Shown: in pieces, positions 18,498-41,562 of the stretch | How the letters are laid out: every line of letters starts with the position of its first letter | Numbering within the stretch: the first letter of the stretch is position 1 | Source of the DNA: Betaproteobacteria bacterium | GTDB lineage: Bacteria; Pseudomonadota; Gammaproteobacteria; Burkholderiales; SG8-41 | NCBI GenBank assembly: GCA_028291945.1 | Contig: JAQGNH010000468.1 | Location: forward strand, 1-42,246 | Direction of reading: 5' to 3' | DNA: 42,246 nucleotides | Made by a program: the position numbers and the translations under genes | Notes under the pieces: model-generated | The model's database searches: none | Told to the model about the DNA's origin: nothing | Seen by the model: only the letters and a program-made list of their open reading frames with translations

Positions 18498-18662
18498 GTT
18501 ATCTCCTCGGATCGCCCTTCGGGCAAACACATTATGCCGTAGGTATCACGCCGCGGTCTTGTGCTCCGCGAGGCTGAACGAACAGAGAAAATAAGCCGCC
18601 TGTGTAATCTCCGGTTCCTTCACGATCGCACCGCAGTATGCATTGACGCTTAGAAGCTACAG

Positions 18663-20105: not shown

Positions 20106-20870
20106 TTACCCGTGGTAGCCGATTGCTCGCGAAATCCTGTCCGCGGTCTGCCGAACTTGTAGCGCCCAGTCTTTCTTCAACCGATCGGACGGCGCCGACA
20201 CCGACAGACCCGCGACGAGCCGTCCTTCATCATTGAAAATACCAGCGCCGATACATGACACACCCTTCTCGGCCTCCTCATTATCGAATGCGTAGCCTTG
20301 ACTGCGCACGGCCTCGATCTCCCGACCCAGACGGTCGCCATCGGTGAGCGTATTGTCGGTAAAACGCGGCAGCCCCGTACGTTTTGCATATTCCGTACAA
20401 CTACCCACGCCATCCTGCGCCAGAAAAACCTTTCCGACCGCGGTGATGTGCAGCGGGGCGCGCGCGCCGATGATCTGTACGACCCGCATCATCGAATGGC
20501 CGGGTGCGGTGCGTTCGATGTACACGACTTCGTCAGCGTGACGCACGCTCAGGTTTACCGTTTCCCCGAGCTCCTGGTGCAGCTGTTGCATGAAGGGTAG
20601 TGCTTCGTGTCGCACGCCGATCCGCGATTTAACGAGATTGCCGAGCTCGAGGAGCCGGATGCCCAGCCGGTAAGTGCCGGGCTCGATGCGATCGACGAGG
20701 CGGCTGTCCACCATGACACCGAGGATGCGGTGGGCCGTGGAAGGATGCAGCGTCGTTTCGCTCGCGAGCTGTTTCAGGTTGACCGCGCTCGTGTGGCGTG
20801 CGAGAGCATCGAGCAGACTCATCATCCGTTCGATCACCTGGATAGACGATTTTGCTTCTTTGAGCGCCAC
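20106..20870 (-). CDS. IclR family transcriptional regulator
   Basis: A 254-residue regulator starting at GTG 20870. The N-terminal winged helix-turn-helix (VIERMMSLLDALARHTSAVN, LKQLASETTLHPSTAHRILG) is followed by the effector-binding IclR domain (GTYRLGIRLLELGNLVKSRI, TAVGKVFLA, GYAFDNEEAEKGVSCIGAGI, GLSVSAPSDRLKK). IclR proteins usually control adjacent catabolic operons in response to small organic acids. The likely targets here are the Bug, membrane protein and aldolase genes downstream, and possibly its own promoter. The upstream spacer shared with greB contains TATAT-6-ATATA (about 20898-20915), a possible operator, weakly supported. Confidence 0.92.
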   Translation of the reverse strand: MALKEAKSSIQVIERMMSLLDALARHTSAVNLKQLASETTLHPSTAHRILGVMVDSRLVDRIEPGTYRLGIRLLELGNLVKSRIGVRHEALPFMQQLHQELGETVNLSVRHADEVVYIERTAPGHSMMRVVQIIGARAPLHITAVGKVFLAQDGVGSCTEYAKRTGLPRFTDNTLTDGDRLGREIEAVRSQGYAFDNEEAEKGVSCIGAGIFNDEGRLVAGLSVSAPSDRLKKDWALQVRQTADRISRAIGYHG

Positions 20871-22597: not shown

Positions 22598-22977
22598 TAT
22601 GAGCATCGGTGATTCGCGTAAAGGTCGGTTCTTTACTTGTTCGGTGCCCGTGCGATCGTAATCGTCCAATGCACCAGGCACGATCGGCGGATATGTCTTC
22701 AGGCTTTCCTGGAAGCCGTTTATGAGACGCCGAGGGCCTGCAGGCGCAGATTGCGCTCGTGTTCGTCCGGCTCTTCCTTGGGGTCCTGGATAGGACTGAA
22801 CAGACAAGCGTGTCCATAGCGTGGGCCCAAGTGCAGCGGGCTGCTGCAACGGTGTCCGCCCACTCTGTCTCGCGTGAGGCGCCCTCAAGAAGCCCCTGAA
22901 CTGGTGCGAGCCCCTTGTGCCGTTTCGCCCGGGAGGCTACAGTCCCGCTACAGGGAGTAGCTTTGAGAAGGCGGGAT
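22598..22977. other. Non-coding stretch with a possible short minus-strand frame
   Basis: No confident gene. On the minus strand 22863-22720, a GTG-started frame of 47 codons reads VGGHRCSSPLHLGPRYGHAC followed by LFSPIQDPKEEPDEHERNLR and LQALGVS. It looks protein-like (acidic helix with a conserved-looking PIQDPKEEPDE stretch) but has no clear ribosome site and no family that I recognise. It could be a small protein or the tail of a lost gene. Confidence 0.3.
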
Positions 22978-23289
22978 ATGTCCAAACAAAACGCCCCAAC
23001 GACGATCGAGAAGTTCGTCAGCACGCATCTCGCGCAGATTGCGGTGCAGGCGTATTCACCCCCCGGTATGCGACCGGCTGCCCGTCGCCAAGCGTCTGCG
23101 CCCGCCGCGGGGTTGTCACGAAAGAAGTCATTTGTCTTGGCCGGTCGCGGCGCGCTCGTTTTTGTCTGTGGTATCGCAGTCGGATATCTCTTGAGCGCTC
23201 AGTCCGAAGTGTCGGTCCAGGCAAAAGCAAGCCAACCGGCGTTCGGCGCCGCACGACTGCGTATCGATTATGATTTGCGCGATCGTTAG
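22978..23289 (+). CDS. Hypothetical small membrane protein
   Basis: A 103-residue protein from an ATG at 22978, preceded by GAGAAGG at 7 bases. The cytosolic N-terminus includes a helix (TTIEKFVSTHLAQIAVQAYS), then an Ala/Pro/Arg-rich linker, one membrane helix (GALVFVCGIAVGYLLSA) near residues 62-78 and a short periplasmic tail. No family recognised. An overlapping frame (22917-23273) is longer upstream but has unlikely composition. It has no partner; a non-coding stretch with an intrinsic terminator follows about 200 bases later. Confidence 0.5.
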   Translation: MSKQNAPTTIEKFVSTHLAQIAVQAYSPPGMRPAARRQASAPAAGLSRKKSFVLAGRGALVFVCGIAVGYLLSAQSEVSVQAKASQPAFGAARLRIDYDLRDR

Positions 23290-23498
23290 TCTTTTCGCTT
23301 GGCCAGCGCATCATGAGCGCCTCGCGCGAAGCAGTCCGATCGTATAAACGTGAGCTGCAATAGGGAGTGGGCGCGCACGTCGTTCAAGCCCGGTCCCATG
23401 CAGGGACAACTGCCTCGCTGGCGCTCTAGCTGCTGAATAAGGTTTGAAGTGCGCGGCCTTGTGACGGTCGCGTTTACTATCTCCTTTGCAGGATCTTC
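23290..23498 (+). ncRNA. Possible small RNA or long 3' leader ending in intrinsic terminator
   Basis: No open frame of note. The stretch ends in a canonical terminator at 23499-23523 lying 210 bases past the nearest upstream gene, and contains the anti-Shine-Dalgarno-like sequence ATCTCCTTTGC (about 23479-23489) just before it. These are features of a base-pairing small RNA, but no convincing promoter was found, so it may equally be the 3' untranslated region of the 22978 gene. Tentative. Confidence 0.25.
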
Positions 23499-23523
23499 AA
23501 GCCGCCTTCGGGCGGCTTTTTTT
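23499..23523 (+). terminator. Rho-independent terminator
   Basis: AAGCCGCC (23499-23506), tetraloop TTCG, GGCGGCTT (23511-23518), leading into a run of seven T (23517-23523). A perfect GC-rich stem with UUCG loop and U tract; it functions on the plus strand only, because the complement lacks a T run. Confidence 0.88.
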
Positions 23524-23677
23524 ATCGTTGGAGTGCAGGGGCCTAACGTGCGTGTTGAGTACGGTTATCATCGGGCGGGGCGGCGGCCCAGCTCTATGTT
23601 TAGCGTGCCGAGTCTGGGTGAGCGAATAGACGCACTGGCACGAACCTATTCGATCGCGACAAATGAGAGCGGGAGTG

Positions 23678-24655
23678 ATGAAAATCGCTGAGCGAGTTTT
23701 TCGATTGTGGTGCGGGGCTTTCCTGGCGGTAGTCTCGGCCGCCGCGTGTTCGCAAACGTATCCGACGAAGCCCGTACGCATCATAGTGCCGTTTGCTCCG
23801 GCCGGCTCCACTGACATCACCGCGCGCGTGGTCGCACAGAAGCTCACCGATGCATGGCGTCAGCAGGTCATCGTCGACAACCGCGCAGGTGCTGGCGGAA
23901 ACATCGGGGCGGAAGCGGTCGCAAAGTCCACGCCCGATGGCTATACGCTCCTGCTCGCAACGACCGGCGTGATGGCGATCAACCACCGGCTTTATCGCAA
24001 TCTATCCTTCGATGCTTTGCGCGATTTTGTACCGGTGACGCGGATCGGCGCGTTGCCGCTCATCCTGATCGTTCATCCGTCGCTGCCGGCAAAGACCGTG
24101 AAAGACCTGATTTCGATTGCCAAAGCAAAGCCGGGGCAGTTGAGCTATGCCCCGTCGGGCGTAGGGAGCGCTACGCACATGACTTCCGAGCTGTTTCGCA
24201 TGATGGCAGGCGTGGACATCGTGCACATTCCGTACAAGGGCAGTGGACAGGCGATGGTGGATCTGATCAGCGGTCAGGTGGCGCTGGCCTTCGACCAGAT
24301 CACAAGCTCGCAGCCCCAAGTGGAAATGGGTAAGCTGCGTGCTCTCGCGGTCACGAGCGCGAAGCGATTTCCGTCCGTGCGCGAGCTGCCCACCGTCGCG
24401 CAAGCGGGGCTTCCAGGATATGAGTCAGTCTCCTGGAACGGACTTGCTGCGCCAACCGGCACGCCGCAAGAAATCATCATTCGTATCCAGGAACAGGTTG
24501 CGCGCGCGTTGCAGTCGCCCGACATCAAGGAACGCTTCTTCAAAGACGGCATAGAACCCGTGGCGTCCACCCCGGAACGGTTCGCAGCGCACATCAGGTC
24601 CGAACGCGCGAGGTGGGAGAAAGTCGTCGACACGGCCGGCATCAAGCCGCTCTGA
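23678..24655 (+). CDS. Bug/TctC-type tripartite tricarboxylate receptor
   Basis: Periplasmic binding protein, 325 residues. The ATG at 23678 is preceded by GGGAG and begins MKIAERVFRLW, followed by a signal peptide that ends near AACSQ; an ATG at 23663 adds five residues. Signatures: YPTKPVRIIVPFAPAGSTDI, DNRAGAGGNIGAEAVAKSTP with DGYTLLLATTGVM, PYKGSGQAMVDLISGQVALA, VSWNGLAAPTGTPQEIIIRI, and the C-terminal RWEKVVDTAGIKPL. It heads a plus-strand run with LutA-, PanE-, LutB-, MMSDH- and LutC-like genes, 15 bases before lutA, so the ligand is plausibly the acid oxidised by that set. No TctAB subunits nearby. Confidence 0.94.
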   Translation: MKIAERVFRLWCGAFLAVVSAAACSQTYPTKPVRIIVPFAPAGSTDITARVVAQKLTDAWRQQVIVDNRAGAGGNIGAEAVAKSTPDGYTLLLATTGVMAINHRLYRNLSFDALRDFVPVTRIGALPLILIVHPSLPAKTVKDLISIAKAKPGQLSYAPSGVGSATHMTSELFRMMAGVDIVHIPYKGSGQAMVDLISGQVALAFDQITSSQPQVEMGKLRALAVTSAKRFPSVRELPTVAQAGLPGYESVSWNGLAAPTGTPQEIIIRIQEQVARALQSPDIKERFFKDGIEPVASTPERFAAHIRSERARWEKVVDTAGIKPL

Positions 24656-24670
24656 ACGGGCTTTCGCCCT

Positions 24671-25423
24671 ATGCGCGTCGGACTGTTCGTCACCTGTCTG
24701 GTCGACCTGATGCGTCCACGCATCGGTTTTGCAGCGCTCGAGCTGCTCGAATCGGCCGGATGCGAAGTTGTGGTCCCCGACACTCAGACGTGCTGCGGCC
24801 AGCCGGGGTACAACTCGGGCGATCGCGCTTCGGCATTGGCTCTCGCGCGCAAAGTCATTGCCGAGTTTGAAGCCTGCGAATATGTAGTGGCGCCGTCGGG
24901 TTCCTGTGCCGGCATGATACGCACGCACTATCCGGACCTGTTTCGTGACGCGCCGGAAGATTTCGCGCGCGCGCAGCGCTTCTGCGCGAAGACTTACGAG
25001 CTCACCGATTTCCTTGTGAATGTCGCGAAGCTTGAACGGGTGCCTGGCCGCTACAATGGCACTGCGACGTATCATGACTCGTGTGCGGGCTTGCGTGAGC
25101 TGAAAATCAAAGCGCAGCCGCGCGAGCTGCTTGCCAAGGTGTGCGGACTCACCCTTATCGAAATGAAAGAGCCAGAACAGTGCTGCGGCTTCGGTGGCAC
25201 GTTCAGCATCAAGTTCGGCGAGGTTTCTTCGCATATTGCCGAGCGCAAGTGCGCTGATATCGAGGCCGCAGGTGCGGACGCGGTGGTGCTGGGTGATCTT
25301 GGCTGCATGCTCAATATCGAAGGGCGGATGCGCCGACGCGGCGACATGAAGACACAGGTTCTGCACGTCGCTGAGGTTCTCGTGCGCGATGTGACGGCAG
25401 AGAAAGAGCGCGGCATCAAATGA
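24671..25423 (+). CDS. lutA: (Fe-S)-binding protein, LutA/YkgE family
   Basis: Subunit of the LutABC iron-sulfur hydroxyacid (L-lactate) oxidase; 250 residues. It carries the two CCG cysteine-rich domains of the family: DTQTCCGQPGYNSGDR near residue 37 and EQCCGFGGTFSIKFGEVSSH near 172, with further cysteines in PSGSCAGMIR near 77, TYHDSCAGLRELK near 137 and GDLGCMLNIEGR near 215. These domains bind heterodisulfide-reductase-type clusters. The ATG follows a tight hairpin GGGC-TTTC-GCCC (24658-24669) instead of a ribosome site. The stop overlaps the next ATG by four bases. Confidence 0.92.
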   Translation: MRVGLFVTCLVDLMRPRIGFAALELLESAGCEVVVPDTQTCCGQPGYNSGDRASALALARKVIAEFEACEYVVAPSGSCAGMIRTHYPDLFRDAPEDFARAQRFCAKTYELTDFLVNVAKLERVPGRYNGTATYHDSCAGLRELKIKAQPRELLAKVCGLTLIEMKEPEQCCGFGGTFSIKFGEVSSHIAERKCADIEAAGADAVVLGDLGCMLNIEGRMRRRGDMKTQVLHVAEVLVRDVTAEKERGIK

Positions 25424-26349
25424 AAATTGCAGTATTGGGTTCCGGCGGCGTCGGTGGCTTTTACGGTGGCCGGCTTGCCAACGCCGGATACGACGTTTCG
25501 TTTGTCGCGCGCGGTGCGCATCTGGCAGCGATGCGTTCTCGAGGCCTCACGATCGAGAATGCGGCGCAGGGCAACATCCATGTGCCGCGCGTGAAAGTGA
25601 CCGATGACCCCGCCACCATCGGTGAGGTCGACCTGGTGCTGATCGCGGTGAAACTGTGGGACACCGAAGCAGCGGCGCGTGCGGTGAAGCCAATTGTCGG
25701 AGCGCACACAGCCGTGCTGTCACTCCAGAACGGCGTGATCAAGGACGACATCATGAGGCGCGAATTCGGCGCCGCTGCAGTCATAGGTGGTGTCGCATAC
25801 GTCGGCACGCGCATTGCGCGGCCCGGCGTGATCCTGCAGACCGGCACGTTGCAGCGCCTCGTGTTCGGCGAATACGATGGTGCACGATCAGTTCGCGCGG
25901 GCGAACTGCTGGACGCGCTGCTGCGTGCAGGCATACAAGCCGAGTTATCCGAAGACATTCGCCGCACGCTGTGGGAGAAGTACGTTTTCCTGGTCGGGTT
26001 GTCCGGCACGACGACGACCATGCGCATGCCCATAGGTCCGATCCGCGAGAATCCGCAGACACGCGCGTTTCTGCTCGATCTCATGAAAGAGACCGTAGCC
26101 GTCGGCCGCGCGCATGGGGTGCACTTGCCTGAGGACTACGCCGAGCAAAGGCTCGCATTTGCCGACACCGTTGCGCCCGACATGAGCTCGTCCATGCACC
26201 ATGACCTCGAGCATGGCAATCGTCTGGAAGTCGCGTGGCTTTCCGGCGGCGTCGTTCAGCTGGGCCAAGCGGCTGGAGTAGAAGCGCCGGCAAATCGCGC
26301 TGTATGGGACATTCTCGCCCTTCATGCAACAGGCAAACGCACGGCTTGA
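25420..26349 (+). CDS. 2-dehydropantoate 2-reductase (PanE/ApbA) family protein
   Basis: An NAD(P)H-dependent ketoacid reductase, 309 residues. The Rossmann motif KIAVLGSGGVGGFYGGRLA opens the protein. The central AVKLWDTEAAARAV and LSLQNGVIKDD segments, the catalytic lysine in TLWEKYVFLVG near 187 and the helix SSMHHDLEHGNRLEVAWLSG near 255 with its Ser and Glu all match the ketopantoate reductase family. True PanE reduces ketopantoate. Here the ATG overlaps the lutA stop (ATGA) and lutB follows 83 bases later, so a role on a 2-keto or related acid of the same catabolic route is more likely than vitamin synthesis. Many paralogues of this family are uncharacterised, so I give no symbol. Confidence 0.88.
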   Translation: MKIAVLGSGGVGGFYGGRLANAGYDVSFVARGAHLAAMRSRGLTIENAAQGNIHVPRVKVTDDPATIGEVDLVLIAVKLWDTEAAARAVKPIVGAHTAVLSLQNGVIKDDIMRREFGAAAVIGGVAYVGTRIARPGVILQTGTLQRLVFGEYDGARSVRAGELLDALLRAGIQAELSEDIRRTLWEKYVFLVGLSGTTTTMRMPIGPIRENPQTRAFLLDLMKETVAVGRAHGVHLPEDYAEQRLAFADTVAPDMSSSMHHDLEHGNRLEVAWLSGGVVQLGQAAGVEAPANRAVWDILALHATGKRTA

Positions 26350-26432
26350 AACGGGCAGCGTTCAAAGTCCTCGCCGCTATCGATGCGTGACACCGCTGTG
26401 ATAAGTCAGCTGCCTTCAAGGATGACAGCCCT

Positions 26433-27851
26433 GTGCAGCTGACGTCGAACCGATTCAAGCAGACCGCGCGTGCAAAGCTCGCGGATACGGATCTGCAGGC
26501 TGCGCTTAACAAGCTGCAAACAAACTTCGTCAAAGGCCGCGCGGACCGGGTTGCCGAGCTCGATAACTTCGAAGCGATACGGGACGCGGCTACGGCGATA
26601 CGCGACCGGGCGCTGGCGCATCTTGACGTTTACCTCGCCGAGTTCGAACGCAATGCGACGGCGCAAGGTACAGTCGTACACTGGGCCGAAACCACAGTCG
26701 ACGTCAATCGCATCGTGTGCGAGCTGGCGGCACGTTACGGTGTGCGCAAGGCCGTTAAGTCTAAATCGATGGTGAGCGAAGAGTGCGCGCTCAACGATGC
26801 ACTTGAAGCCGCCGGTATCGAAGTCGTCGAGACGGACCTCGGTGAATACATCCTGCAGCTTGCGAAAGAGCCGCCCTCGCACATCGTCGCGCCTGTCGTG
26901 CACAAGACGCGGGAGCAGGTCTCAGACCTTTTCGAAGCCAGGCACCACCGCCCGCGAACTACGGTGATCGCCGATCTCACGCGGGAAGCGCGCGAAGTGC
27001 TGCGGCCGCATTTTCTGTCGGCGCAAATGGGCATCACTGGAGCCAACTTTGTAGTTGCCGAGACGGGCTCGACGCTGATCGTGACCAACGAGGGCAACGG
27101 CCGCATGGTAACGAGCCTGCCACGCGTCCATGTTGCGATTACCGGCATCGAGAAAGTGGTGCCGACGCTCGAAGACGTGACGACGCTGCTGCGCCTGTTG
27201 CCTCGACACGGTACCGCGCAGACGACGACGAATTACGTTTCGGTAACCACAGGGCCGCGGCGGGCCGACGATTCCGAAGGTCCCGAGCATTTCCACGTCA
27301 TTCTCGTGGATGCGGGCCGCAGCCGGCTTCTCGGCGGCGACATGGAGGCGATGCTGCGCTGCATCCGGTGCGGCGCGTGCATGAATCACTGCCCGGTGTA
27401 CCAGAGCATCGGCGGTCACGCCTACGGCTGGGTCTATCCGGGTCCCATGGGCTCCGTGCTCACGCCGACGTACGCCGGCCTGGAAAATGCGCTCGACCTG
27501 CCGCATGCGTCGACGTTATGCAATCAGTGCGGGGTCGTGTGTCCGGTTAAAATACCCCTGCCGGACCTGCTGCGGAAACTCCGCGAGAAACAGTTCGCGC
27601 GCGGTCTGCGCCCGTGGAGTGAGCGCGCCGGCCTTGCAATCTGGGGCTGGACCGCGCGTCATCCGAGAGTGTATGCGTTGCTATCAGCCGTGGGCGCCCG
27701 GCTATTGAACTGGCTCGGCGGGACTGACAAGCGCATTCGAGATCTGCCCGGCGGCAAGGGTTGGACAGTTGGACGGGATATACCTGCACCGGAAGGCAAA
27801 ACGTTTCGTGCGCTGTATGCCGCGCGACGCGCTGAGAACGTTCGCAAATAG
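26433..27851 (+). CDS. lutB: Iron-sulfur LutB/YkgF family protein
   Basis: A 472-residue subunit of the LutABC oxidase, started at GTG 26433 with AAGGATG upstream. Residues about 60-300 form the LUD domain (GMTGANF-like MGITGANFVVAETGSTLIVT, then NEGNGRMVTSLPRVHV). Residues about 305-375 hold the ferredoxin-like clusters: CIRCGACMNHCPVYQSIGGH with YGWVYPGPMGSVLTP, then LCNQCGVVCPVKIPLPDLLR. The C-terminus is a helical tail. The motifs are complete, so the enzyme should be active. It is separated from lutA by the PanE-like gene and from lutC by the MMSDH gene, unlike the usual contiguous lutABC. Confidence 0.94.
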   Translation: MQLTSNRFKQTARAKLADTDLQAALNKLQTNFVKGRADRVAELDNFEAIRDAATAIRDRALAHLDVYLAEFERNATAQGTVVHWAETTVDVNRIVCELAARYGVRKAVKSKSMVSEECALNDALEAAGIEVVETDLGEYILQLAKEPPSHIVAPVVHKTREQVSDLFEARHHRPRTTVIADLTREAREVLRPHFLSAQMGITGANFVVAETGSTLIVTNEGNGRMVTSLPRVHVAITGIEKVVPTLEDVTTLLRLLPRHGTAQTTTNYVSVTTGPRRADDSEGPEHFHVILVDAGRSRLLGGDMEAMLRCIRCGACMNHCPVYQSIGGHAYGWVYPGPMGSVLTPTYAGLENALDLPHASTLCNQCGVVCPVKIPLPDLLRKLREKQFARGLRPWSERAGLAIWGWTARHPRVYALLSAVGARLLNWLGGTDKRIRDLPGGKGWTVGRDIPAPEGKTFRALYAARRAENVRK

Positions 27852-27904
27852 GCAGGTACTTCGCGGATTGCAGCGGTCAATGCAGAGCGCGACTAGGAGA
27901 CACC

Positions 27905-29422
27905 ATGAACAAGCCGACTGACATGAAAGCCGAGAGCGTGCCACTGTGGATCAACGGACGCAGACACGCCGCGTCGAGCTCGCGCTCCGGAGATGTGACG
28001 AACCCGGCGACGGGCGAGATCGTGCGTCAGGTGCCATTCTGCAACGCCGAGGACATTGCAGCCGCAGTGGGCGCGGCCAAAGCCGCTTTCCCCGGCTGGC
28101 GCGATACGCCGCCGCTGCGCCGGGCCCGCATCCTCATGCGCTATCGCGAGCTGATCGAAGCGCACCGCGACGAGCTCGCAAAGCTGATTACGGAAGAGCA
28201 TGGTAAAACACTGCCGGACGCTGCGGGCTCGGTACAGCGCGGCCTCGAAGTGGTCGAATTCGCCACGGGCATACCGCACCTGATGAAAGGCGAGTACAGC
28301 GAGGAGGTCGGTACCAACGTCGATACGCACTCGCTACGGCAGCCGCTGGGCGTATGCGCCGGCATCACCCCCTTCAACTTCCCCGCCATGGTGCCGCTGT
28401 GGATGTATCCAGTCGCCATTGCATGCGGCAATACGTTCGTTCTGAAGCCCTCGGAGAAAGTGCCTTCCACCGCGATGCGCCTGGCGGAGCTTTTCAAGGA
28501 AGCCGGCCTGCCGGATGGCGTGCTGAACGTCGTGCACGGCGATAAACCCGCGGTCGACGCGCTGCTCACCCACCCGGACGTAAAGGCGGTTTCTTTTGTT
28601 GGCTCTACGCCGATTGCGCGTTACATCTACGAGACTTGCGCCAAGCACGGCAAGCGAGTGCAGGCGCTCGGCGGCGCGAAAAATCACGCGGTCGTTCTGC
28701 CTGACGCGGACCTCGATTTCGCCACCGATGCGCTCATCGGCGCGGCATATGGCTCCGCCGGAGAGCGTTGCATGGCCATATCAGCCGTTGTCGCAGTAGC
28801 CGAAGCGGGAGACCCGCTGGTCGCCAAGCTCAAGGAACGCGCTTCCAAGCTCAACGTCGGACCCGGTACTGGAAAAGACGTCGACATGGGTCCGCTGGTG
28901 ACGTGCGCTCATCGCGATAAGGTTTCCGGTTATGTCGACAAAGGTGTCGCGGAAGGCGCGAAGCTCGTGCTGGACGGACGCAACCACAAGACACCCGCGC
29001 ACGAGGACGGGTTCTTCCTCGGGGCATCGCTTTTCGATCAAGTGAAGCCGGAGATGACCATCTACAAAGAGGAGATCTTCGGTCCGGTCCTGGTCGTGCT
29101 GCGCGCAAAAACGCTGGATGAAGCGATCGCGCTCATCAATGCGAATCCATACGCGAACGGCACAGCGGTATTCACGCGCTCCGGCGGCGCGGCACGCAAA
29201 TTCGAGCGCGAGATCGAAGTTGGCATGGTCGGCATCAACGTACCGATTCCGGTGCCGATCGCGTTTTTCTCGTTTGGTGGATGGCGCAACTCGCTTTTCG
29301 GCGACACGCATGTGCACGGCATGGAAGGCGTGCGCTTCTATACCCGTGGCAAAGTGGTAACCACGCGCTGGCCTGACGCGAACGCCTTGCCAAGCGGGTT
29401 CAATATGCCCACTTTGGGGTGA
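27905..29422 (+). CDS. mmsA: CoA-acylating methylmalonate-semialdehyde dehydrogenase
   Basis: NAD- and CoA-dependent aldehyde dehydrogenase that converts methylmalonate or malonate semialdehyde to propionyl- or acetyl-CoA plus CO2. The 505-residue product has the MMSDH hallmarks NPATGEIVRQVPFCNAED near 35, HGKTLPDAAGSVQRGLEVVE near 100, PLGVCAGITPFNFPAMVPLW near 145, the cofactor site VSFVGSTPIARYIYE, and the catalytic cysteine in GSAGERCMAISAVVAV near 290, then KEEIFGPVL near 390. AGGAGACACC precedes the ATG. It lies between lutB and lutC, implying that the pathway passes through a 3-oxo-acid semialdehyde or a similar aldehyde. The iolA product is a close relative. Confidence 0.93.
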   Translation: MNKPTDMKAESVPLWINGRRHAASSSRSGDVTNPATGEIVRQVPFCNAEDIAAAVGAAKAAFPGWRDTPPLRRARILMRYRELIEAHRDELAKLITEEHGKTLPDAAGSVQRGLEVVEFATGIPHLMKGEYSEEVGTNVDTHSLRQPLGVCAGITPFNFPAMVPLWMYPVAIACGNTFVLKPSEKVPSTAMRLAELFKEAGLPDGVLNVVHGDKPAVDALLTHPDVKAVSFVGSTPIARYIYETCAKHGKRVQALGGAKNHAVVLPDADLDFATDALIGAAYGSAGERCMAISAVVAVAEAGDPLVAKLKERASKLNVGPGTGKDVDMGPLVTCAHRDKVSGYVDKGVAEGAKLVLDGRNHKTPAHEDGFFLGASLFDQVKPEMTIYKEEIFGPVLVVLRAKTLDEAIALINANPYANGTAVFTRSGGAARKFEREIEVGMVGINVPIPVPIAFFSFGGWRNSLFGDTHVHGMEGVRFYTRGKVVTTRWPDANALPSGFNMPTLG

Positions 29423-29589
29423 AATGCGTGATGCGTGATGCGTGATTTGTGATTCGAAAGGTTCGTTTTGGTGTTTAGCGCCCGATCCCGAGATTCCGTG
29501 AAGCGTCTGGCGCCGTTAGGCCTCTGCTCGCCTCTTGTGCTGGAGCGGATCACAGCTCACCAATCACGGATTACGGTGTTAGCTTCAGT
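29423..29589 (+). repeat. Intergenic short repeats between mmsA and lutC
   Basis: Three tandem copies of the heptamer ATGCGTG (29424-29444) run into degenerate copies (TGATTTGTGATTCG), and about 110 bases later comes an inverted match (CCAATCACGGATTACGG, around 29559-29576). Nothing else is recognised here. Its layout resembles the repeat pair at 35104-35179. Confidence 0.5.
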
Positions 29590-30240
29590 ATGAGCGCGCG
29601 AGAGCGCATCCTCGCCCGCATCCGCGAGCGTCAGGGAAAACCTTACGAGATCGACCCCGTTGAGCTCGCAGCCGTGCGGACTCATCTTGCAGCGCATCCG
29701 CGAAGTCCCGGTCCGCGTGACGCATGGGACGTGAACGTGCGTTTCCGCGAGCGCGCAACGTCTCTCGCGTCTACGATCGATGAAGCGGCGGTGCTGAGTG
29801 ACGTGCCCGCGCTTGCAGCACAGTATTTGCGCGGCCGCGAGGTTCCTCCGCGCGCGGTGTGCTGGCGGGAGCTCGGCGAGCTCGACTGGCGTGGCGCCGG
29901 ACTGGACGTGGAAGTGCGCCCAGCACATGGCGATGACCTTGTTGGTATCACCGGCGTGTTTTGCGGCATCTCCGAGACGGGGACTTTGATGACGCTTTCA
30001 AGCCCTCACTCTCCCTCCACCGTGAGCCTGTTACCCGAGACACACATCGCAGTCTTGCAACAGGCCCGGATCGTGCGTTCGATGGAAGACGCGTGGGCGC
30101 TTGTGCGGACTGAAGTCGATGGCCTGCCGCGGGCGGTAAGTTTCATATCGGGACCCTCCCGAACCGCAGACATCGAGCAAACAGTTACGCTCGGTGCGCA
30201 CGGGCCTTATCGCGTCCACATCATCATCGTCGGCGGCTGA
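29590..30240 (+). CDS. lutC: LutC/YkgG family LUD-domain protein
   Basis: A 216-residue third subunit of the Lut hydroxyacid oxidase. N-terminal helices (MSARERILARIRERQGKP) are followed by a LUD domain with the typical GITGVFCGISETGTLMTLSS near 117, LLPETHIAVLQQARIVRSME near 144 and the C-terminal signature ISGPSRTADIEQTVTLGAHG, then PYRVHIII, near 182-214. The family has been linked to lactate use with LutA and LutB, although its exact role is less clear. It lies 167 bases after mmsA across a repeat-bearing spacer, so it may be less tightly coupled than the other genes of the run. Confidence 0.92.
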   Translation: MSARERILARIRERQGKPYEIDPVELAAVRTHLAAHPRSPGPRDAWDVNVRFRERATSLASTIDEAAVLSDVPALAAQYLRGREVPPRAVCWRELGELDWRGAGLDVEVRPAHGDDLVGITGVFCGISETGTLMTLSSPHSPSTVSLLPETHIAVLQQARIVRSMEDAWALVRTEVDGLPRAVSFISGPSRTADIEQTVTLGAHGPYRVHIIIVGG

Positions 30241-30460: not shown

Positions 30461-31261
30461 TTGCAGGTTTTGACACCGCGCGTCGACCTGGCCGGTTTTA
30501 TCGCGCGCATTGCGCACGCACCGGCACGCGTGCTCATGCTCGATTACGACGGCACGCTGGCACCCTTTCACGTGAAGCCCGATCAAGCGGTGCCAACGCC
30601 AGCGGTCGCTGCTGTGCTCGAAGAAATCATTCAGGCGGGGGGCACGCGTGTCGTGCTCGTCAGCGGCCGGCCGGCCGAAGAATTGCCGCCGCTACTCAAC
30701 TTGAGCGAACGACCAGAAATCTGGGGCTCCCACGGCTGGGAGCGTCTGCTGCCGGACGGCCGACGCATAGTCGAGGAGCCCGCCGACGAAGTACGCCAGG
30801 CACTGGCACGAGCTGCGGCGGCCATTCGGGCCGTCATGCCCGCCGGAGGGCGGCTCGAAGAAAAACTTGCAAGTGTAGCGGTGCACTGGCGAGGGCTTCC
30901 CGAGGAATTGGCGCGCGCACTGCAGCGGGAGGCGAGCGCGTGCTTCCAAGGATTTGCCGGCGTGAATGACGTCGAAGTGCTGTCTTTCGACGGTGGCGTC
31001 GAGCTCAGAGCGGTCGGTTGCAACAAGCAGTATGCTGTAAAAGCAGTGCTGTCGAAAACGAAGGACGACAGTGCCGTTGCCTATCTCGGCGACGATATCA
31101 CCGATGAGGATGCATTCCGCGCGGTGAAACCTCGCGGACTTGGTGTTCTGGTGCGCGGAGAGTTCCGGAAAACCGAAGCCGACGTTTGGATACGGCCTCC
31201 GCACGAGCTGGTCGAGTTCCTCGGACACTGGCGCGTGAAAGGGGATCACGGTGTGCAATAG
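30461..31261 (+). CDS. otsB: Trehalose-6-phosphate phosphatase
   Basis: Dephosphorylates trehalose-6-phosphate to trehalose; HAD superfamily, cytosolic. The 266-residue product starts at TTG 30461 with GGAG seven bases upstream. Motif I is LMLDYDGTLAPF with both catalytic aspartates near residue 28, motif II VVLVSGRP near 66, GSHGWERLLPDG near 90, the basic motif KQYAVKAVL near 188 and motif IV YLGDDITDEDAF near 209. It precedes otsA by 186 bases, together forming the OtsAB route for this osmo- and desiccation protectant. No general-stress promoter could be read with confidence. Confidence 0.95.
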   Translation: MQVLTPRVDLAGFIARIAHAPARVLMLDYDGTLAPFHVKPDQAVPTPAVAAVLEEIIQAGGTRVVLVSGRPAEELPPLLNLSERPEIWGSHGWERLLPDGRRIVEEPADEVRQALARAAAAIRAVMPAGGRLEEKLASVAVHWRGLPEELARALQREASACFQGFAGVNDVEVLSFDGGVELRAVGCNKQYAVKAVLSKTKDDSAVAYLGDDITDEDAFRAVKPRGLGVLVRGEFRKTEADVWIRPPHELVEFLGHWRVKGDHGVQ

Positions 31262-31447
31262 CACGCGCACGAGCGACTCCGAGACTACCGGACTGCGTGG
31301 TACCACTATAGCTCTGGGTGTTATATCCCGCCGCACTGAATTCGCTTATGCTAGAGGAGCGCTCACCCGGGATGCAGGGCGGCGAAATAACGCAAGCCGC
31401 TGGATGTGCGTGAAGCACATCCTATGAGCGCAAGCAGGGGTAGCCGA

Positions 31448-35991: not shown

Positions 35992-37410
35992 TTGCCCTGG
36001 GGACGGAATACAAGAATCGCGGACTCGGCGGCGGGCCAAGGTGTGCTTCAAGAGAAACGCCGCAAACCGGCACTGGTCTTCTGCGTCTTGCTTGGTTCTG
36101 TAACTCCGCTTTGTGCGCTCGCCGCGGTACGCCTCGACCATTCAGGTCCACAAATGTTCGGCATACCACTCGAGTTCTTCTTGTTTGCCTTGACGTTGCT
36201 CGGCGTGGCCGTGTTCCATCACCACACGCTCGCCGTGGCTGTCATTGGTCTGCTGGTTATCATCACCTACAAACTGCTGTTCACCGGTTTCACTACGGGC
36301 CTGGGTTTTTACGGTCTAGGCCAGCATCTTTTGCAAGAGTGGGTGATCCTCACGAATCTGCTCGGACTGCTGCTCGGCTTCGCGCTGCTGGCGAAGCACT
36401 TCCAGGAAAGCCGCATTCCCGAAGAGCTGCCGCGCTTCCTGCCCGACGACTGGAAAGGCGGGCTTGCTCTGCTCGCCATCATATTCGTCTTATCGAGCTT
36501 TCTCGATAACATCGCCGCGGCCATGATTGGCGGTACGATGGCGATGACCGTATTCCGGGGAAAGGTCCACATCGGATATCTTGCCGCAATCGTCGCAGCA
36601 TCGAACGCGGGTGGCTCCGGGAGCGTAGTCGGCGACACGACCACGACGATGATGTGGATAGATGGAGTGGCGGCAGAAGACGTGCTGCACGGCTATGTCG
36701 CCGCAGTCGTTGCGTTGCTGGTGTTCGGAATTCCGGCCGCTCTCCAGCAGCAGCGTTATTCGCCCATCACCAAACACGCAAAGCGCGGCATACGCGTCGA
36801 CTGGGTGTGCGTCGGAGTCGTGGCGGCCATACTTGCCGCTGCGATCGTTACGAACGTGATCGTCAATCTGGAGTTTGCATCGATCTCGGACCGCTTCCCA
36901 TTCGTAGGTGCTGCCGTCTGGGTTGCGATCCCGTTGGCAGCGCTCGTGCGCCGGCCTGACTGGAGCCTGCTTCCTGGCGCGTTCAAAGGCAGCGTCTTTC
37001 TACTGTCGCTGATCCTGTGTGCGTCGCTCATGCCGGTCGAGCATTTGCCTGCGGCCTCGTGGCCGAGCGCGCTGGCTCTGGGCTTCGTCTCCGCGGGATT
37101 CGACAACATACCGCTGACCTCGCTCGCTCTGCGGCAAGGCGGTTACGACTGGGGGTTCCTGGCTTATGCAGTCGGATTCGGCGGCTCGATCATCTGGTTT
37201 GGTTCCTCTGCCGGAGTTGCGCTGTCGAACATGTTTCCGGAAGCGAGATCGGTGGGTCCCTGGCTGCGCCATGGATGGCATGTCACTCTTGCTTACATCA
37301 TTGGGTTTTTCGCGCTGCTCGCGTTTGTCGGCTGGACGCCGCACGACAGGCACAAGCCGGCGCCCGCCACGCCCCAGACGGTGCCTGGCGCCCATCAGCG
37401 TATCTCTTGA
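35992..37410 (+). CDS. Sodium/proton antiporter-like carrier (NhaD/ArsB-type IT superfamily)
   Basis: A 472-residue polytopic inner-membrane protein with about 12 helices. The frame opens at TTG 35992, three bases after the slipin stop; GTG 36043 is an alternative and neither has a good ribosome site. The motifs LLGFALLAKHFQESRIPEEL, FVLSSFLDNIAAAMIGGTMA and ASNAGGSGSVVGDTTTTMMW in the first half, and GFVSAGFDNIPLTSLALRQG with GGSIIWFGSSAGVALSNMFP in the second, are the paired re-entrant SFLDN/GDTTT-type signatures of NhaD, citrate and arsenite carriers (ion transporter superfamily). Probably Na+/H+ exchange, but a dicarboxylate or other anion cannot be excluded. Confidence 0.85.
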   Translation: MPWGRNTRIADSAAGQGVLQEKRRKPALVFCVLLGSVTPLCALAAVRLDHSGPQMFGIPLEFFLFALTLLGVAVFHHHTLAVAVIGLLVIITYKLLFTGFTTGLGFYGLGQHLLQEWVILTNLLGLLLGFALLAKHFQESRIPEELPRFLPDDWKGGLALLAIIFVLSSFLDNIAAAMIGGTMAMTVFRGKVHIGYLAAIVAASNAGGSGSVVGDTTTTMMWIDGVAAEDVLHGYVAAVVALLVFGIPAALQQQRYSPITKHAKRGIRVDWVCVGVVAAILAAAIVTNVIVNLEFASISDRFPFVGAAVWVAIPLAALVRRPDWSLLPGAFKGSVFLLSLILCASLMPVEHLPAASWPSALALGFVSAGFDNIPLTSLALRQGGYDWGFLAYAVGFGGSIIWFGSSAGVALSNMFPEARSVGPWLRHGWHVTLAYIIGFFALLAFVGWTPHDRHKPAPATPQTVPGAHQRIS

Positions 37411-37746: not shown

Positions 37747-38934
37747 ATGTCGAAGAAGTCCCGCAATCCCGTGCACGACAATGGCAGTCCATCCCGCCGC
37801 AAATTTCTGACGCGCGCTGCGGCGGCGGCCACGGTGGTACCGATGTTTGCCATGGCCCAGCAACAGAAGCCCGCGGCGCCTGCGGTCGTATCGTCCACCG
37901 GACCTGTCAACATGCGTTTTCAATCGACTTGGCCGGCCAAGGATATCTTCCATGAGTACGCGCTCGACTACGCCAAAACCGTGAACGATATGACCGGCGG
38001 CGATCTGCGCATCGAAGTGTTGCCTGCGGGGGCGGTAGTGCCGGCCTTCGGTCTTCTTGAAGCCGTCTCGAAAGGCACGCTCGATGGCGGGCACGGCGTG
38101 CTGGTCTACTCCTATGGCAAAAGCAATTCTCTCGCGCTCTGGGGATCGGGCCCGGCATTCGGCATGGATGCCAACATGCTGCTCGCGTGGCACAAGTGGG
38201 GCGGAGGAAAGGAGCTGCTCGAAAAAGTATATGCATCCATCGGTGCGAATGTAGTTTCATTTCCCTATGCACCGCTTTATACGCAGCCGCTGGGATGGTT
38301 CAAGAAGCCGATTACGAAGTGGGAAGATTTCAAGGGCCTCAAGTACCGCACAGTCGGCATTTCGATCGACGTGTTCACCGGCATGGGTGCGGCGGTAAAT
38401 GCCCTGCCCGGTGGCGAGATCGTTCCGGCGATTGACCGGGGCCTGCTTGATGCCGCCGAGTTCAACAATACCTCGTCCGACCGTGCGCTCGGCTTTGCCG
38501 ACGTGTCCAAGACATGCATGCTGCAGAGCTATCACCAGAACGCCGAGCAGCTCGAGATCACCTTTAATAAAACTAAGTACGATGCGCTGCCTGCCAAGCT
38601 CAAGTCGATCATCGCCTACGCGGTCGACGCTGCGTCGGCGAACATGATGTGGAAGGCGATCGACCGCAACTCGCAGGATTACATTACGCTGCAGACCACG
38701 GACAAGGTCAAGTTCTATAGGACTCCGACGTCGGTCCTGCAGAAACAGCTGGAGGTCTACGATCAAGTAGTCGCGAAGAAAGGCGAGGGCACCCCGTTCT
38801 TCAAGGAGATCATCGCCTCGCAGAAGAAGTTCGCGGAGCGCGCGGTGAAATGGGAGCAGGACGTCGTCGTGAATCGCCGCATGGCTTACGACCACTATTT
38901 CTCGTCAACAAAACCGGCCGCGAAAAAGGCCTGA
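37747..38934 (+). CDS. TRAP transporter solute receptor, DctP-type, Tat-exported
   Basis: Periplasmic receptor of a tripartite ATP-independent transporter, 395 residues, start preceded by GGAGGAAGC. The N-terminus carries a twin-arginine signal (PSRRKFLTRAAAAATVV). The mature part shows the DctP fold: RFQSTWPAKDIFHEYALDYA, GDLRIEVLPAGAVVPAFGLL, GTLDGGHGVLVYSYGK, FKGLKYRTVGISIDVFTGMG near 195 (the ligand-contacting Arg of the family in KYR) and AAEFNNTSSDRALGF. It resembles the branch annotated as mannitol/chloroaromatic or keto-acid (TakP-like) receptors. Tat export suggests folding before secretion. The permease genes follow beyond an intrinsic terminator. Confidence 0.92.
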   Translation: MSKKSRNPVHDNGSPSRRKFLTRAAAAATVVPMFAMAQQQKPAAPAVVSSTGPVNMRFQSTWPAKDIFHEYALDYAKTVNDMTGGDLRIEVLPAGAVVPAFGLLEAVSKGTLDGGHGVLVYSYGKSNSLALWGSGPAFGMDANMLLAWHKWGGGKELLEKVYASIGANVVSFPYAPLYTQPLGWFKKPITKWEDFKGLKYRTVGISIDVFTGMGAAVNALPGGEIVPAIDRGLLDAAEFNNTSSDRALGFADVSKTCMLQSYHQNAEQLEITFNKTKYDALPAKLKSIIAYAVDAASANMMWKAIDRNSQDYITLQTTDKVKFYRTPTSVLQKQLEVYDQVVAKKGEGTPFFKEIIASQKKFAERAVKWEQDVVVNRRMAYDHYFSSTKPAAKKA

Positions 38935-38953
38935 TCCCTGTTTTGGAAACTCG

Positions 38954-38993
38954 GGCACCATCCGGGCCTCGATCCTGGGTGGTGTTTTTTTTT
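38954..38993 (+). terminator. Intrinsic terminator between TRAP receptor and permease genes
   Basis: CACCATCC (38956-38963) pairs with GGGTGGTG (38977-38984) with one G-U pair over a 13-base loop, followed by nine T (38985-38993). It sits 20 bases after the receptor stop and 28 before the small permease ATG, where it could let most transcripts end after the receptor gene and a minority read through. Confidence 0.75.
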
Positions 38994-39020
38994 GGAACAG
39001 CCTCTCCATAGCGCCGCCGT

Positions 39021-39692
39021 ATGAAAGTCCAGAATTTTCTGCTTGCCGCCGACCACATCAGTACCTGGGCGGGCAAGACCACCGCTTGGCTGATCATGCT
39101 ACTCATGGCGGCGGTATGTATCGAGGTGTTCAAGCGCTACATCCTGAACGCGCCGACGGCGTGGATTTTCGACCTCGATAACATGCTTTATGGCACGCTG
39201 TTCATGATGTGCGGCGCCTACACGCTTGCGCAGGACGCTCACGTCAGAGGCGACTTCCTCTACGGCTCGATGAAGCCGCGCACCCAGGCCTCGCTCGACT
39301 TGGTTCTATATATATTGTTCTTCCTCCCCGGAATCGCTGCCCTGATCTACGCGGGAATCGACTACGCGGGCGAGTCGTGGCGCATCAATGAACACTCGAA
39401 TGTCACGTCGGAGGGGCCTCCCGTCTATCCGTTCAAGACCGTCATCCCGATTGCTGGAGTTCTGGTGCTGATCCAGGGACTGGCCGAAATCGTGCGTTGC
39501 GTAGTGTGTCTGAAGACCGGGGCATGGCCCGAGCGCCTCAAGGACGTCGAGGAGATCGATGTGATCGAGCAGCAGCTCGCCGGCAGCACACTCGTGGACG
39601 AGGAATCCCGACGGCGTGCGATCGAAGGCGCTCACCAGATCGACGAAGCTGCGCACCAGCGCATCGGTTCAAGGGGAGCGGAACGTGAGTGA
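39021..39692 (+). CDS. TRAP transporter small permease subunit, DctQ-type
   Basis: A 223-residue inner-membrane protein with four helices (WLIMLLMAAVCIEVFKRYIL, LYGTLFMMCGAYTLAQDAHV, LVLYILFFLPGIAALIYAGI, VIPIAGVLVLIQGLAEIVRC). The family signature is the conserved FKRYILNAPTAWIFDLDNML and HVRGDFLYG. A hydrophilic, Glu-rich C-terminal tail of about 55 residues is longer than usual. The tail overlaps the next gene by eight bases (GTG at 39685). No ribosome site is evident. Works with the receptor and large permease to import an organic acid using the sodium gradient. Confidence 0.9.
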   Translation: MKVQNFLLAADHISTWAGKTTAWLIMLLMAAVCIEVFKRYILNAPTAWIFDLDNMLYGTLFMMCGAYTLAQDAHVRGDFLYGSMKPRTQASLDLVLYILFFLPGIAALIYAGIDYAGESWRINEHSNVTSEGPPVYPFKTVIPIAGVLVLIQGLAEIVRCVVCLKTGAWPERLKDVEEIDVIEQQLAGSTLVDEESRRRAIEGAHQIDEAAHQRIGSRGAERE

Positions 39693-41562
39693 TCCGGCAC
39701 TGGGCCTGACCATGCTCGCGCTGATCGTCGTCGTGATCATGATGGGCTTTCCGACGGCATTCACGCTGATGGGTCTCGGCATGGTGTTCGGCTACATCGC
39801 GTTTTATGACCCGTCGCATTCGTGGGCGGACAACCGGGTCTTCGACTTGATGGTCGAGCGCACCTATGGCGCGATGAACAACGACGTGCTGATCTCGATT
39901 CCCTTGTTCGTGCTCATGGGCTACGTGATGGAGCGAGGCGCGCTGGTGGACAAGATGTTTTACAGCATCCAGCTCGCGTTCCGGCGGGTGCCGGCTTCGC
40001 TCGCGGTCGCCACTCTGATCGTGTGCACGTTCTGGGGCATCGCGAGCGGCCTGGTAGGCGCGGTCGTCGTGCTGATGGGCGTCATCGCGTTCAATCCGAT
40101 GCTGAAAGCCGGCTACGACGTGAAGCTTGCTTCGGGTGTTATCACGGCCGGAGGGACACTCGGGATCCTCATTCCGCCCTCTGTGATGATCATCGTCTAC
40201 GCTGCAGTCGCCGGCCAGTCGGTGGTCAAGCTCTATGCATCGGCGATGTTTCCCGGGTTCTTCCTGTCGTTCCTCTATCTCGTATACATCGTCGGCTGGG
40301 CGCTGATCAATCCGAAGATTGCTCCAAAACTGCCGGAGTCCGAGCAGAAAGTGCCGGTGTCCGAATGGGTACCGAAGTTCCAGCAAGCCTATTCCCGCAA
40401 CATGCTGGTTGGTTTGTTTGCCGCTCTATTCATGCCCCGTAAGGCGCTCGCGATCGAGAGCGACGGCCGCCGGTTGTCCTATGTGGCGGTATGGAAGAAT
40501 TTTCTCGCGGCGCTGTTTCCGCTCATGCTCACGGCGGTGACCGTGTGGGGAATCTGGTGGTACGTGGTCATCCACCCGCAGGCCAATGTCGAGCCGGTGA
40601 CGAGCGTCACACAAAAACAGGCCGCACCAGTCGCTCCTGCCCCTCAGACGTCGCAGGCGGGCGAGGATAAGCCGCAAGAGCTCGGCAACGCCGAAGCTGA
40701 AACAGCCTCAAGGACGGTGCGCGAACCTGAAGGCGTAGAGCAGGTAGGCACTCCGGAGCTTTTGCAGCAAGGACAAGCGGCGCCCGCGGAAGCAGGTCCG
40801 CCGTCCGCTTTTTATACTTATTTCTGGATTATTGTTGCAGCGACGACCCTTGTGCTCATCTGGTATTACTGGAAGCTACAGGCCGAATCGTTCGAGTTGC
40901 TGAAGATGCTCATCTCGTCGGTGATGCCGCTGGGCATCCTGACGATCGTGGTCCTTGCCGTCATCCTCTTCGGGATCACTACTGCCACCGAATCGGCAGG
41001 TATTGGCGCCGCAGGGGCGTTCCTGCTTGCGCTGCAAGCGGGGACGTTCGACTGGGAGCGCACCAAGCAATCCGTCTTCCTGACCGCCAAGACCACTGCG
41101 ATGGTGTGTTGGCTGTTCATCGGCTCGGCCCTCTTTTCCGGCGTATTCGCGATTCTGGGTGGCCAGCAGCTGGTCGAGACATGGGTCCTCGGTTTAAATT
41201 TGTCGCCGATCCAGTTCATGATCCTGTCGCAGGCGATCATTTTCGTGCTCGGCTGGCCGCTCGAATGGACTGAAATCATCGTCATTTTCGTGCCGATATT
41301 TCTGCCGCTGCTGAAGCATTTCAACATCGATCCGATTCTGTGGGGCACGCTCGTGTTCGTGAACCTTCAGGCGGCATTCCTCTCGCCGCCAGTGGCGATG
41401 TCGGCGTTTTATCTGAAGGGCGTTGCACCGAAGCACGTCACGCTCAATCAGATTTTCGCAGGCATGATGCCGTACATGCTGATCGTGATTGTGTGCATGG
41501 TTATCATGTACGTTTGGCCCGGCATGACGCTGTGGTTGCCGCACTACCTCTACGGAAATTGA
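39685..41562 (+). CDS. TRAP transporter large permease subunit, DctM-type, with central insertion
   Basis: The GTG at 39685 follows GGGGAGCGGAAC and overlaps the DctQ stop; an ATG at 39616 in frame is within dctQ and unlikely. The 625-residue product has DctM signatures in the first 210 residues (IMMGFPTAFTLMGLGMVFGY, NDVLISIPLFVLMGYVMERG, CTFWGIASGLVGAVVVLMGV, GGTLGILIPPSVMIIVYA) and in the last 210 (GITTATESAGIGAAGAFLLA, GWPLEWTEIIVIFVPIFLPL, FLSPPVAMSAFYLKGVAPKH). Between them lies an insertion of about 200 residues with extra hydrophobic helices and a Gln/Ala/Glu-rich low-complexity segment (APVAPAPQTSQAGEDKPQEL). Usual DctM length is about 430. Confidence 0.92.
   Translation: MSDPALGLTMLALIVVVIMMGFPTAFTLMGLGMVFGYIAFYDPSHSWADNRVFDLMVERTYGAMNNDVLISIPLFVLMGYVMERGALVDKMFYSIQLAFRRVPASLAVATLIVCTFWGIASGLVGAVVVLMGVIAFNPMLKAGYDVKLASGVITAGGTLGILIPPSVMIIVYAAVAGQSVVKLYASAMFPGFFLSFLYLVYIVGWALINPKIAPKLPESEQKVPVSEWVPKFQQAYSRNMLVGLFAALFMPRKALAIESDGRRLSYVAVWKNFLAALFPLMLTAVTVWGIWWYVVIHPQANVEPVTSVTQKQAAPVAPAPQTSQAGEDKPQELGNAEAETASRTVREPEGVEQVGTPELLQQGQAAPAEAGPPSAFYTYFWIIVAATTLVLIWYYWKLQAESFELLKMLISSVMPLGILTIVVLAVILFGITTATESAGIGAAGAFLLALQAGTFDWERTKQSVFLTAKTTAMVCWLFIGSALFSGVFAILGGQQLVETWVLGLNLSPIQFMILSQAIIFVLGWPLEWTEIIVIFVPIFLPLLKHFNIDPILWGTLVFVNLQAAFLSPPVAMSAFYLKGVAPKHVTLNQIFAGMMPYMLIVIVCMVIMYVWPGMTLWLPHYLYGN

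Follow-up and report, generated by a model that had tools for sequence, protein, structure and literature searches.

The question raised by this locus is why lutA, lutB and lutC, the genes of a LutABC-type iron-sulfur oxidase, are kept apart by a ketopantoate-reductase-like (panE-like) gene and by mmsA, the gene for a CoA-acylating (methyl)malonate-semialdehyde dehydrogenase (MMSDH). The locus lies in a stretch of 42,246 nucleotides (nt) from a Betaproteobacteria bacterium (assembly GCA_028291945.1, contig JAQGNH010000468.1), the whole of which is referred to as the window. As far as the literature was searched, the parts of the locus are known and their arrangement is undescribed: it is a remodelled form of the lut operon, real and conserved across the family-level group of the window genome (group f1), with lutB-mmsA-lutC as its stable core.

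Gene content of the locus

Six plus-strand genes, which had been named as Bug, lutA, panE-like, lutB, mmsA and lutC in a preliminary description made from the sequence alone, were confirmed in place and identity by open reading frame (ORF) and domain searches:

23663..24655 (alternative ATG at 23678), plus strand: Bug/TctC periplasmic receptor (PF03401, 243.5 bits; TctC domain)
24671..25423, plus strand: lutA, iron-sulfur protein of the CCG family (two CCG stretches)
25420..26349, plus strand: panE-like, oxidoreductase of the ketopantoate-reductase fold (ApbA and ApbA_C; TIGR00745)
26433..27851, plus strand: lutB (LUD, 4Fe-4S dicluster and LutB_C; TIGR00273, 448.9 bits against a cut-off of 444.8)
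27905..29422, plus strand: mmsA, CoA-acylating (methyl)malonate-semialdehyde dehydrogenase (TIGR01722, 754.5 bits against a cut-off of 448.5)
29590..30240, plus strand: lutC, LUD-domain protein (LUD domain, 103.2 bits)

The short gaps or ATGA overlaps reported in that description were found for Bug-lutA (15 nt) and lutA-panE (-4 nt, an ATGA overlap), and not for panE-lutB (83 nt), lutB-mmsA (53 nt) and mmsA-lutC (167 nt), the last of which is not short. lutB and lutC are the only two LUD-domain genes in the genome. All three subunits of the lutABC/lldEFG/ykgEFG lactate operon are present with their domains, and LutB scores above the TIGR00273 cut-off, but the lut genes of the window are broken up by the panE-like gene and mmsA. 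LutABC is linked to the oxidation of L-lactate to pyruvate in an excerpt of PMC3924224. No description of a lut-mmsA arrangement was found among the titles and abstract openings listed from the open-licence literature.

Conservation of lutB-mmsA-lutC

lutB, mmsA and lutC were consecutive in 42 of the 57 f1 loci. The group f1 was represented by 60 genomes (the window's own, G000, three of the same genus and 56 of the same family), and the locus was fetched in 57 of them (all but G012, G019 and G039); G, L and C labels denote genomes, fetched loci and contigs of the window genome, respectively. Gene orders were counted by tblastn with the window proteins at self-chosen identity thresholds; unrelated intervening genes were passed over, fragments at contig ends were counted and G002 was pieced together from two contigs. 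Genes of the relatives were predicted with our own codon-score caller, by which some were missed (e.g. lutB in L161 and L198) and on which the overlap counts depend.

In ten further genomes mmsA adjoined one lut gene, with a single junction only in nine (G004, G017, G018, G024, G029, G038, G043, G054 and G057) while in the tenth (G016) the mmsA-lutC pair stands on a different contig. Several kb of other genes lie between lutB and mmsA in G004 and G050, the two genes being about 13.6 kb apart in the latter. The lutB-mmsA gap was at most 379 nt in 43 of 46 measured loci and the mmsA-lutC gap at most 332 nt in 43 of 47; by our gene calls, mmsA and lutB overlapped by 4 nt in nine f1 loci (L113, L125, L126, L139, L141, L142, L145, L149 and L155). 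The order was kept across nine genera, with LutB and most lut-linked MmsA about 70-86% identical to those of the window, while the flanks varied: Bug, greB/htrA, otsBA and exonuclease genes differ between loci and make the neighbourhood a mosaic. Outside f1, G064 and G095 have lutB-mmsA-lutC; the same order stands in three titled contigs not assigned to a family (L038, L042 and L048), with a D-2-hydroxyacid dehydrogenase gene after mmsA in L042. In L044, titled Gammaproteobacteria, the order was lutB-lutC-mmsA.

The LutB tree (121 rows, quick search, SH-aLRT support only; seven duplicate loci, L130 from G035, which is close to G006, and LutB proteins shorter than 400 aa omitted) placed the window in a 49-row set (support 96), in which mmsA stood beside lutB in 42 rows, the arrangement was unreadable or of another kind in six, and one row was unbroken. 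Over the 87 readable rows of the tree, the presence of mmsA beside lutB required four changes. A single old gain of mmsA in f1, with rare loss and a few gains or transfers outside, would fit this distribution best. That the lut genes are broken up had been noticed in the preliminary description. Their separation by mmsA, to which the panE-like gene adds in about a third of the genomes, is conserved and thus not accidental. Restriction to this genome, which that description had considered, applies to the exact six-gene order (one of 57 loci, the window only) and not to lutB-mmsA-lutC.

Position of lutA

The third lut gene is the loose part of the locus. lutA was found on the fetched stretch in 25 of the 57 genomes, 86 to 6125 nt before lutB, and in 15 of the remaining loci at least 7 kb upstream of lutB were read and lutA was not encountered. 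By whole-genome search (E <= 1e-70) it was found in 48 of the 60 genomes: 14.5-24.5 kb upstream of lutB on the same contig and strand in eight (G004, G007, G015, G026, G031, G036, G040 and G044) and on a contig other than that of lutB in 16. There was no match at this threshold in 12 (G012, G018, G019, G024, G028, G030, G033, G037, G039, G042, G043 and G057), with a fragment in G018. In the eight genomes the lutA-lutB interval seems to have been swollen by insertions, while lutB-mmsA-lutC stayed tight. The tight unit is thus lutB-mmsA-lutC; lutA, in some genomes together with the panE-like or a racemase-like gene, forms a second, movable one. In G011, a racemase-like gene begins about 50 nt behind the distant lutA.

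Copy number, phylogeny and likely substrate of MmsA

MmsA is the only MMSDH in the window genome; the other long aldehyde-dehydrogenase matches are at most 32% identical to it (one 55-residue fragment, 40%). It matched 5tjr with 695 bits. Exactly one MmsA match (E <= 1e-150) was found in 55 of the 60 f1 genomes and none in five (G012, G018, G019, G039 and G057), with fragments in G018 and G057.

In the MmsA tree (89 rows, quick search, SH-aLRT support only, backbone poorly resolved; the same seven duplicate loci, rows shorter than 400 aa, one duplicate and one short locus omitted), the window enzyme fell in a 42-row set (support 98), 39 rows of which were lut-linked. Six mmsB-labelled enzymes, two of them labelled by eye or weak similarity, formed a separate clade (support 100) that excluded the window enzyme. 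It also lay outside, and nearer to, an 18-row clade (support 97) of eight aptA-linked, four GMC-linked, three iol-linked and three other enzymes, in which the GMC and iol labels were likewise assigned by eye or weak similarity. The MmsA proteins of G006 and G035, which are encoded near aptA, grouped with the lut-linked rows (support 82) and not with the 18-row clade.

According to an excerpt of PMC6572756, three MmsA enzymes are separated genetically in C. necator H16 as aptA-linked (aptA-mmsA1, beta-alanine), hpdH-linked (hpdH-mmsA2, 3-hydroxypropionate) and valine-linked (mmsA3/mmsAB), malonate semialdehyde is regarded as the main substrate of the first two, and these could stand in for the valine one. 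The window MmsA is nearer to enzymes of the aptA and hpdH settings described there, but the partners of mmsA in the window are lutB and lutC, and aptA is on another contig. With the mmsAB valine operon it shares the enzyme family (TIGR01722), but it lies outside the mmsB-linked clade and no mmsB of the 3-hydroxyisobutyrate dehydrogenase (HIBADH) type reached the cut-off in the f1 genomes searched. This search, made at the TIGR01692 cut-off, covered 60 relatives, with an f1 subset of 36 genomes (own included): HIBADH over the cut-off was found in none of the 36 and in four of the 60, all outside f1 and each near an mmsA 51-54% identical to that of the window. HIBADH-type matches below the cut-off were numerous in f1, with 19 in the window genome.

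Valine catabolism is therefore unlikely as the reason for mmsA. Because MmsA is the only enzyme of its kind and stands away from the mmsB-linked valine type, malonate semialdehyde would be its likeliest substrate. An annotation trap may follow: the only "methylmalonate-semialdehyde dehydrogenase" of f1 stands outside the valine mmsAB setting and is more likely a malonate semialdehyde enzyme. AptA, an omega-aminotransferase, was found in 34 of the 36 f1 genomes searched (E <= 1e-160); there was no AptA match among the first 1786 predicted proteins of the fetched loci. In G006 and G035, the two genomes with unbroken lutABC, aptA lies about 1.3 kb from mmsA on the opposite strand. The feeding of a semialdehyde from the Lut complex or the PanE-like enzyme to MMSDH stays a proposal; in AptA the genome has an independent source of malonate semialdehyde.

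PanE-like, racemase-like and other junction enzymes

The panE-like gene stood immediately behind lutA in 13 of the 57 f1 loci, was the sole gene of the query set between lutA and lutB in five (G000, G002, G021, G023 and G025), and overlapped lutA in five by our gene calls. The window protein has both PanE domains and exceeds the TIGR00745 cut-off (248.4 against 141.35 bits), but it falls short of the cut-offs of all NCBIfam equivalogs listed. A candidate signature of ketopantoate reductases is Lys and then two Asn (K-x3-N-x3-N), with a role for the Asn residues, and PanE has relatives among the 2-hydroxyacid dehydrogenases. In all 16 clustered PanE-like members the Lys was kept and Asn was absent from both following positions. 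Among three solved relatives aligned, Asn occupies these positions in 3hwr and 3hn2 and not in 2qyt, which is also labelled 2-dehydropantoate 2-reductase, so that the lack of Asn is suggestive only. A role as the housekeeping ketopantoate reductase was considered and thought unlikely; the genome has several other PanE-fold genes.

A mandelate-racemase-like gene was found in 13 of the 57 f1 loci, behind panE in ten of them. The best solved relative of the G003 protein was mandelate racemase (340 bits), but it has Arg in place of the lysine that we take to be Lys166 in mandelate racemase numbering, and the gene is absent from the window locus, the best match in the window genome being 50% identical and on another contig. 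In L115 (9402-10493), a mandelate-racemase-like enzyme with Arg for the second Lys of the KxK motif is encoded inside the lut locus. An Ldh_2 dehydrogenase gene was added in two loci (L120 and L121). The junction of lutB and lutC held a D-2-hydroxyacid dehydrogenase gene in L042, L065 and L067 and, with 4-nt overlaps, a class I aminotransferase gene in L109; in L090 the latter stands behind lutB near the contig end. One member of each class of junction enzymes was domain-scanned and the remaining members were placed by clustering. The junction seems to take up genes for carboxylic-acid enzymes repeatedly. In G037 (L200/L243, without lutB), a racemase-like fragment, an Ldh_2-type gene and genes for PanE-like, Bug, MmsA and a TRAP transporter lie close together, and a flavoprotein gene (fumarate-reductase type, named by eye) adjoins the racemase fragment.

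Bug receptor, transporters and regulator

Three further features of the window bear on uptake and regulation:

20106..20870, minus strand: IclR-type regulator (Pfam IclR_C)
36154..37410, plus strand: membrane gene, transporter-like by eye, with no Pfam or NCBIfam match; recurrent neighbour of lutC in relatives
37747..41562, plus strand: TRAP transporter that recurs beside lutC in relatives, with dctP 37747-38934, dctQ 39021-39692 (so called solely by its position) and dctM 39685-41562

The locus had been described as headed by a Bug receptor, for which the comparison gives weak grounds: Bug before lutA was absent in all three same-genus genomes, and a Bug-family gene lay within 300 nt of lutA in three of the 25 loci showing lutA (the window; G050, 65% identical; G059, 50%). 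One lay within 100 nt of lutB in G004, G049 and G059. Bug was consequently rejected as a core part; Bug-family genes do recur around the locus, at no fixed place. The best solved relatives of the window Bug were 5oei and a terephthalate-binding protein.

The view that a binding protein replaces the permease here is weak as well: the one Lactate_perm match of the genome is on contig C432, not beside the lut genes. The TRAP transporter and membrane gene recur more than Bug, as does the IclR regulator; in 21 of the 57 f1 loci lutC is followed by dctP or the membrane gene as the next query gene. In the window these genes (36154-41562) sit behind otsBA and other genes. The window DctP resembles 2hzk, the ketoacid-binding 7ug8 and 2zzv (TTHA0766, named lactate-binding in fusion entries). 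The IclR gene had 54 matches, counting itself, among the predicted proteins of the fetched loci; 45 of them are immediate neighbours of lutA and seven are beside greB. An IclR gene of this family adjoins lutA in many Burkholderiales loci, and greB and htrA intervene in the window's genus. The locus thus differs from the lactate operon also in having IclR as the nearest conserved regulator and TRAP as the recurrent transporter.

Interpretation of the locus

The reading preferred here, to which we give somewhat less than an even chance, is a remodelled lut locus that serves the use of C3 organic acids, by which 2-hydroxyacid oxidation and malonate-semialdehyde removal would be expressed together. 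The LutABC iron-sulfur complex would oxidize an L-2-hydroxyacid, of which lactate is the likeliest, to give the 2-oxoacid, and would hand on the electrons. MmsA, settled between lutB and lutC, would convert malonate semialdehyde to acetyl-CoA and CO2, the semialdehyde being derived, for example, from beta-alanine by AptA, encoded elsewhere, with pyruvate as the amino acceptor. Interconversion of the other stereoisomer or the corresponding 2-oxoacid would probably fall to the PanE-like enzyme (and, in sister genomes, to the racemase-like one). Shared expression of these enzymes is proposed, and not necessarily one linear pathway. Omega-amino-acid:pyruvate aminotransferases use pyruvate as the amino acceptor, and the simplest link between Lut and MmsA would be the joint use of C3 acids, in which pyruvate from LutABC could also feed the AptA-type aminotransferase. 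The substrates, the direction of the PanE-like reaction, the pyruvate link and joint transcription are what we infer within this reading; it is favoured by the conservation of the core, the single-copy MmsA and its place in the tree, the 4-nt overlaps, AptA in the genome, the lack of HIBADH over the cut-off and the matches of the TRAP receptor.

Several results weigh against it. No sigma-70 promoter match was found by the promoter scan. AptA of the window genome (71% identical to the query) is encoded on contig C487, outside the lut locus, and the panE-like gene occurs in or beside only 19 of the 57 f1 loci (fragments counted, and G037 without lut genes). The MmsA enzymes of C. necator take both semialdehydes (excerpt of PMC6572756), so that the MmsA subtype does not fix the substrate. 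The FMN-dependent 2-hydroxyacid oxidase family (FMN_dh) has nine genes in the window genome, eight of them full-length and one split; LutABC therefore need not be its lactate enzyme and, the lactate permease also being separate, lactate need not be the substrate here. lutB-lutC is unbroken in two of the 57 loci (G006 and G035), where mmsA sits near aptA elsewhere, and in G037 and G042 mmsA is present and no lutB of this type was found genome-wide (best E 7.8e-6 and no match, respectively). Since lutA is distant or on another contig, joint transcription of all three lut subunits is doubtful in many genomes; its being found elsewhere in many f1 genomes lowered our confidence in the C3-acid reading and raised that in a neutral origin, by which the single MMSDH, a spare reductase and Bug were inserted in the lut region as unrelated genes and retained for no other reason than that rearrangement is rare. 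Such a neutral origin, which we regard as unlikely, agrees with the mosaic neighbourhood, with lutA-lutB intervals that reach 14-25 kb in eight genomes, where the two genes have kept to the same strand, and with the separation of lutB from mmsA by several kb of other genes in G004 and G050. It is at odds with the persistence of lutB-mmsA-lutC over nine genera at about 70-86% identity while the flanks change, with the 4-nt mmsA/lutB overlaps in nine loci and with the occurrence of only four changes on the LutB tree.

A linear pathway, in which LutABC or the PanE-like enzyme oxidizes a 3-hydroxyacid (e.g. 3-hydroxypropionate) to malonate semialdehyde for conversion to acetyl-CoA by MmsA, was judged distinctly improbable. 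The Lut complex would then take the place that HpdH, MmsB or AptA has in other mmsA operons, and the main argument for it is that elsewhere mmsA adjoins the gene of its substrate-making enzyme: aptA in eight fetched loci outside f1, a GMC-type oxidoreductase gene (named by eye) in L215, L221, L224 and L227, and HIBADH over the cut-off in four genomes, with a similar gene, by similarity only, in L222 and L231. In f1, where no HIBADH passed the cut-off, the regular partners are lutB and lutC. The known substrate of LutABC, however, is L-lactate, a 2-hydroxyacid (excerpt of PMC3924224), malonate semialdehyde can come from AptA in 34 of 36 f1 genomes, mmsA persists without lutB in G037 and G042, lutA is often far from lutB-mmsA-lutC, and many HIBADH-type genes below the cut-off exist in f1 (19 matches in the own genome). 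The stronger form, to which we attach very little probability, is that the f1 Lut complex is a flavin-free iron-sulfur dehydrogenase and not (only) a lactate oxidase, making malonate semialdehyde for MmsA from a 3-hydroxyacid while the PanE-like and racemase-like enzymes handle stereoisomers; if true, the Lut complex would be one more solution beside AptA, HpdH and MmsB. Equally remote, in our estimate, is a scheme akin to the mandelate pathway: the PanE-like, racemase-like and LutABC enzymes would act on a 2-hydroxyacid that is longer or branched, turning its two isomers into the 2-oxoacid, and MmsA would receive a semialdehyde formed as the 2-oxoacid is broken down. The racemase-like gene in 13 of 57 sister loci, Ldh_2 in L120 and L121, and the D-2-hydroxyacid dehydrogenase (L042, L065, L067) or class I aminotransferase (L109; L090 after lutB) at the lutB/lutC junction would suit this scheme, but no decarboxylase is among the genes of the cluster (no search for one was made in the rest of the genome), the window locus has no racemase-like gene, and the G003 protein has Arg at the Lys166 place. 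The retention of mmsA between lutB and lutC while lutA drifts is a testable hint on the role of LutB and LutC, or at least on which acids the mostly uncultured f1 bacteria, relatives of Burkholderia, use together.

Other features of the window

Two non-coding features accompany the six genes:

23499..23518, plus strand: terminator-like hairpin just upstream of Bug (8-bp stem, T tail; consensus match only)
29423..29589, plus strand: mmsA-lutC spacer of 167 nt with a GTGATGC-type repeat (29426-29456)

Over the whole stretch, 12 terminator-like sites were observed against 8.6 (standard deviation 2.4) in shuffles, so the total number is not telling. The 17-base form of the GTGATGC-type repeat has six copies in the genome against none for the reversed control, by which the repeat may belong to a dispersed one. 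Contamination or misassembly of the contig was considered and is unlikely, as the order htrA-lutA-panE is common to the same-genus genomes G001-G003 and iclR-greB also to G001 and G003. About 1 kb between htrA and Bug (22598-23662) is without a recognisable gene and holds an ORF (22915-23289) without a Pfam match. Within 16221-18530 on the minus strand, a second Bug receptor gene was noted near a class II aldolase gene and an unassigned minus-strand ORF. The trehalose synthesis genes otsB and otsA (30461-32947) follow directly after lutC, as they do in several other f1 loci.

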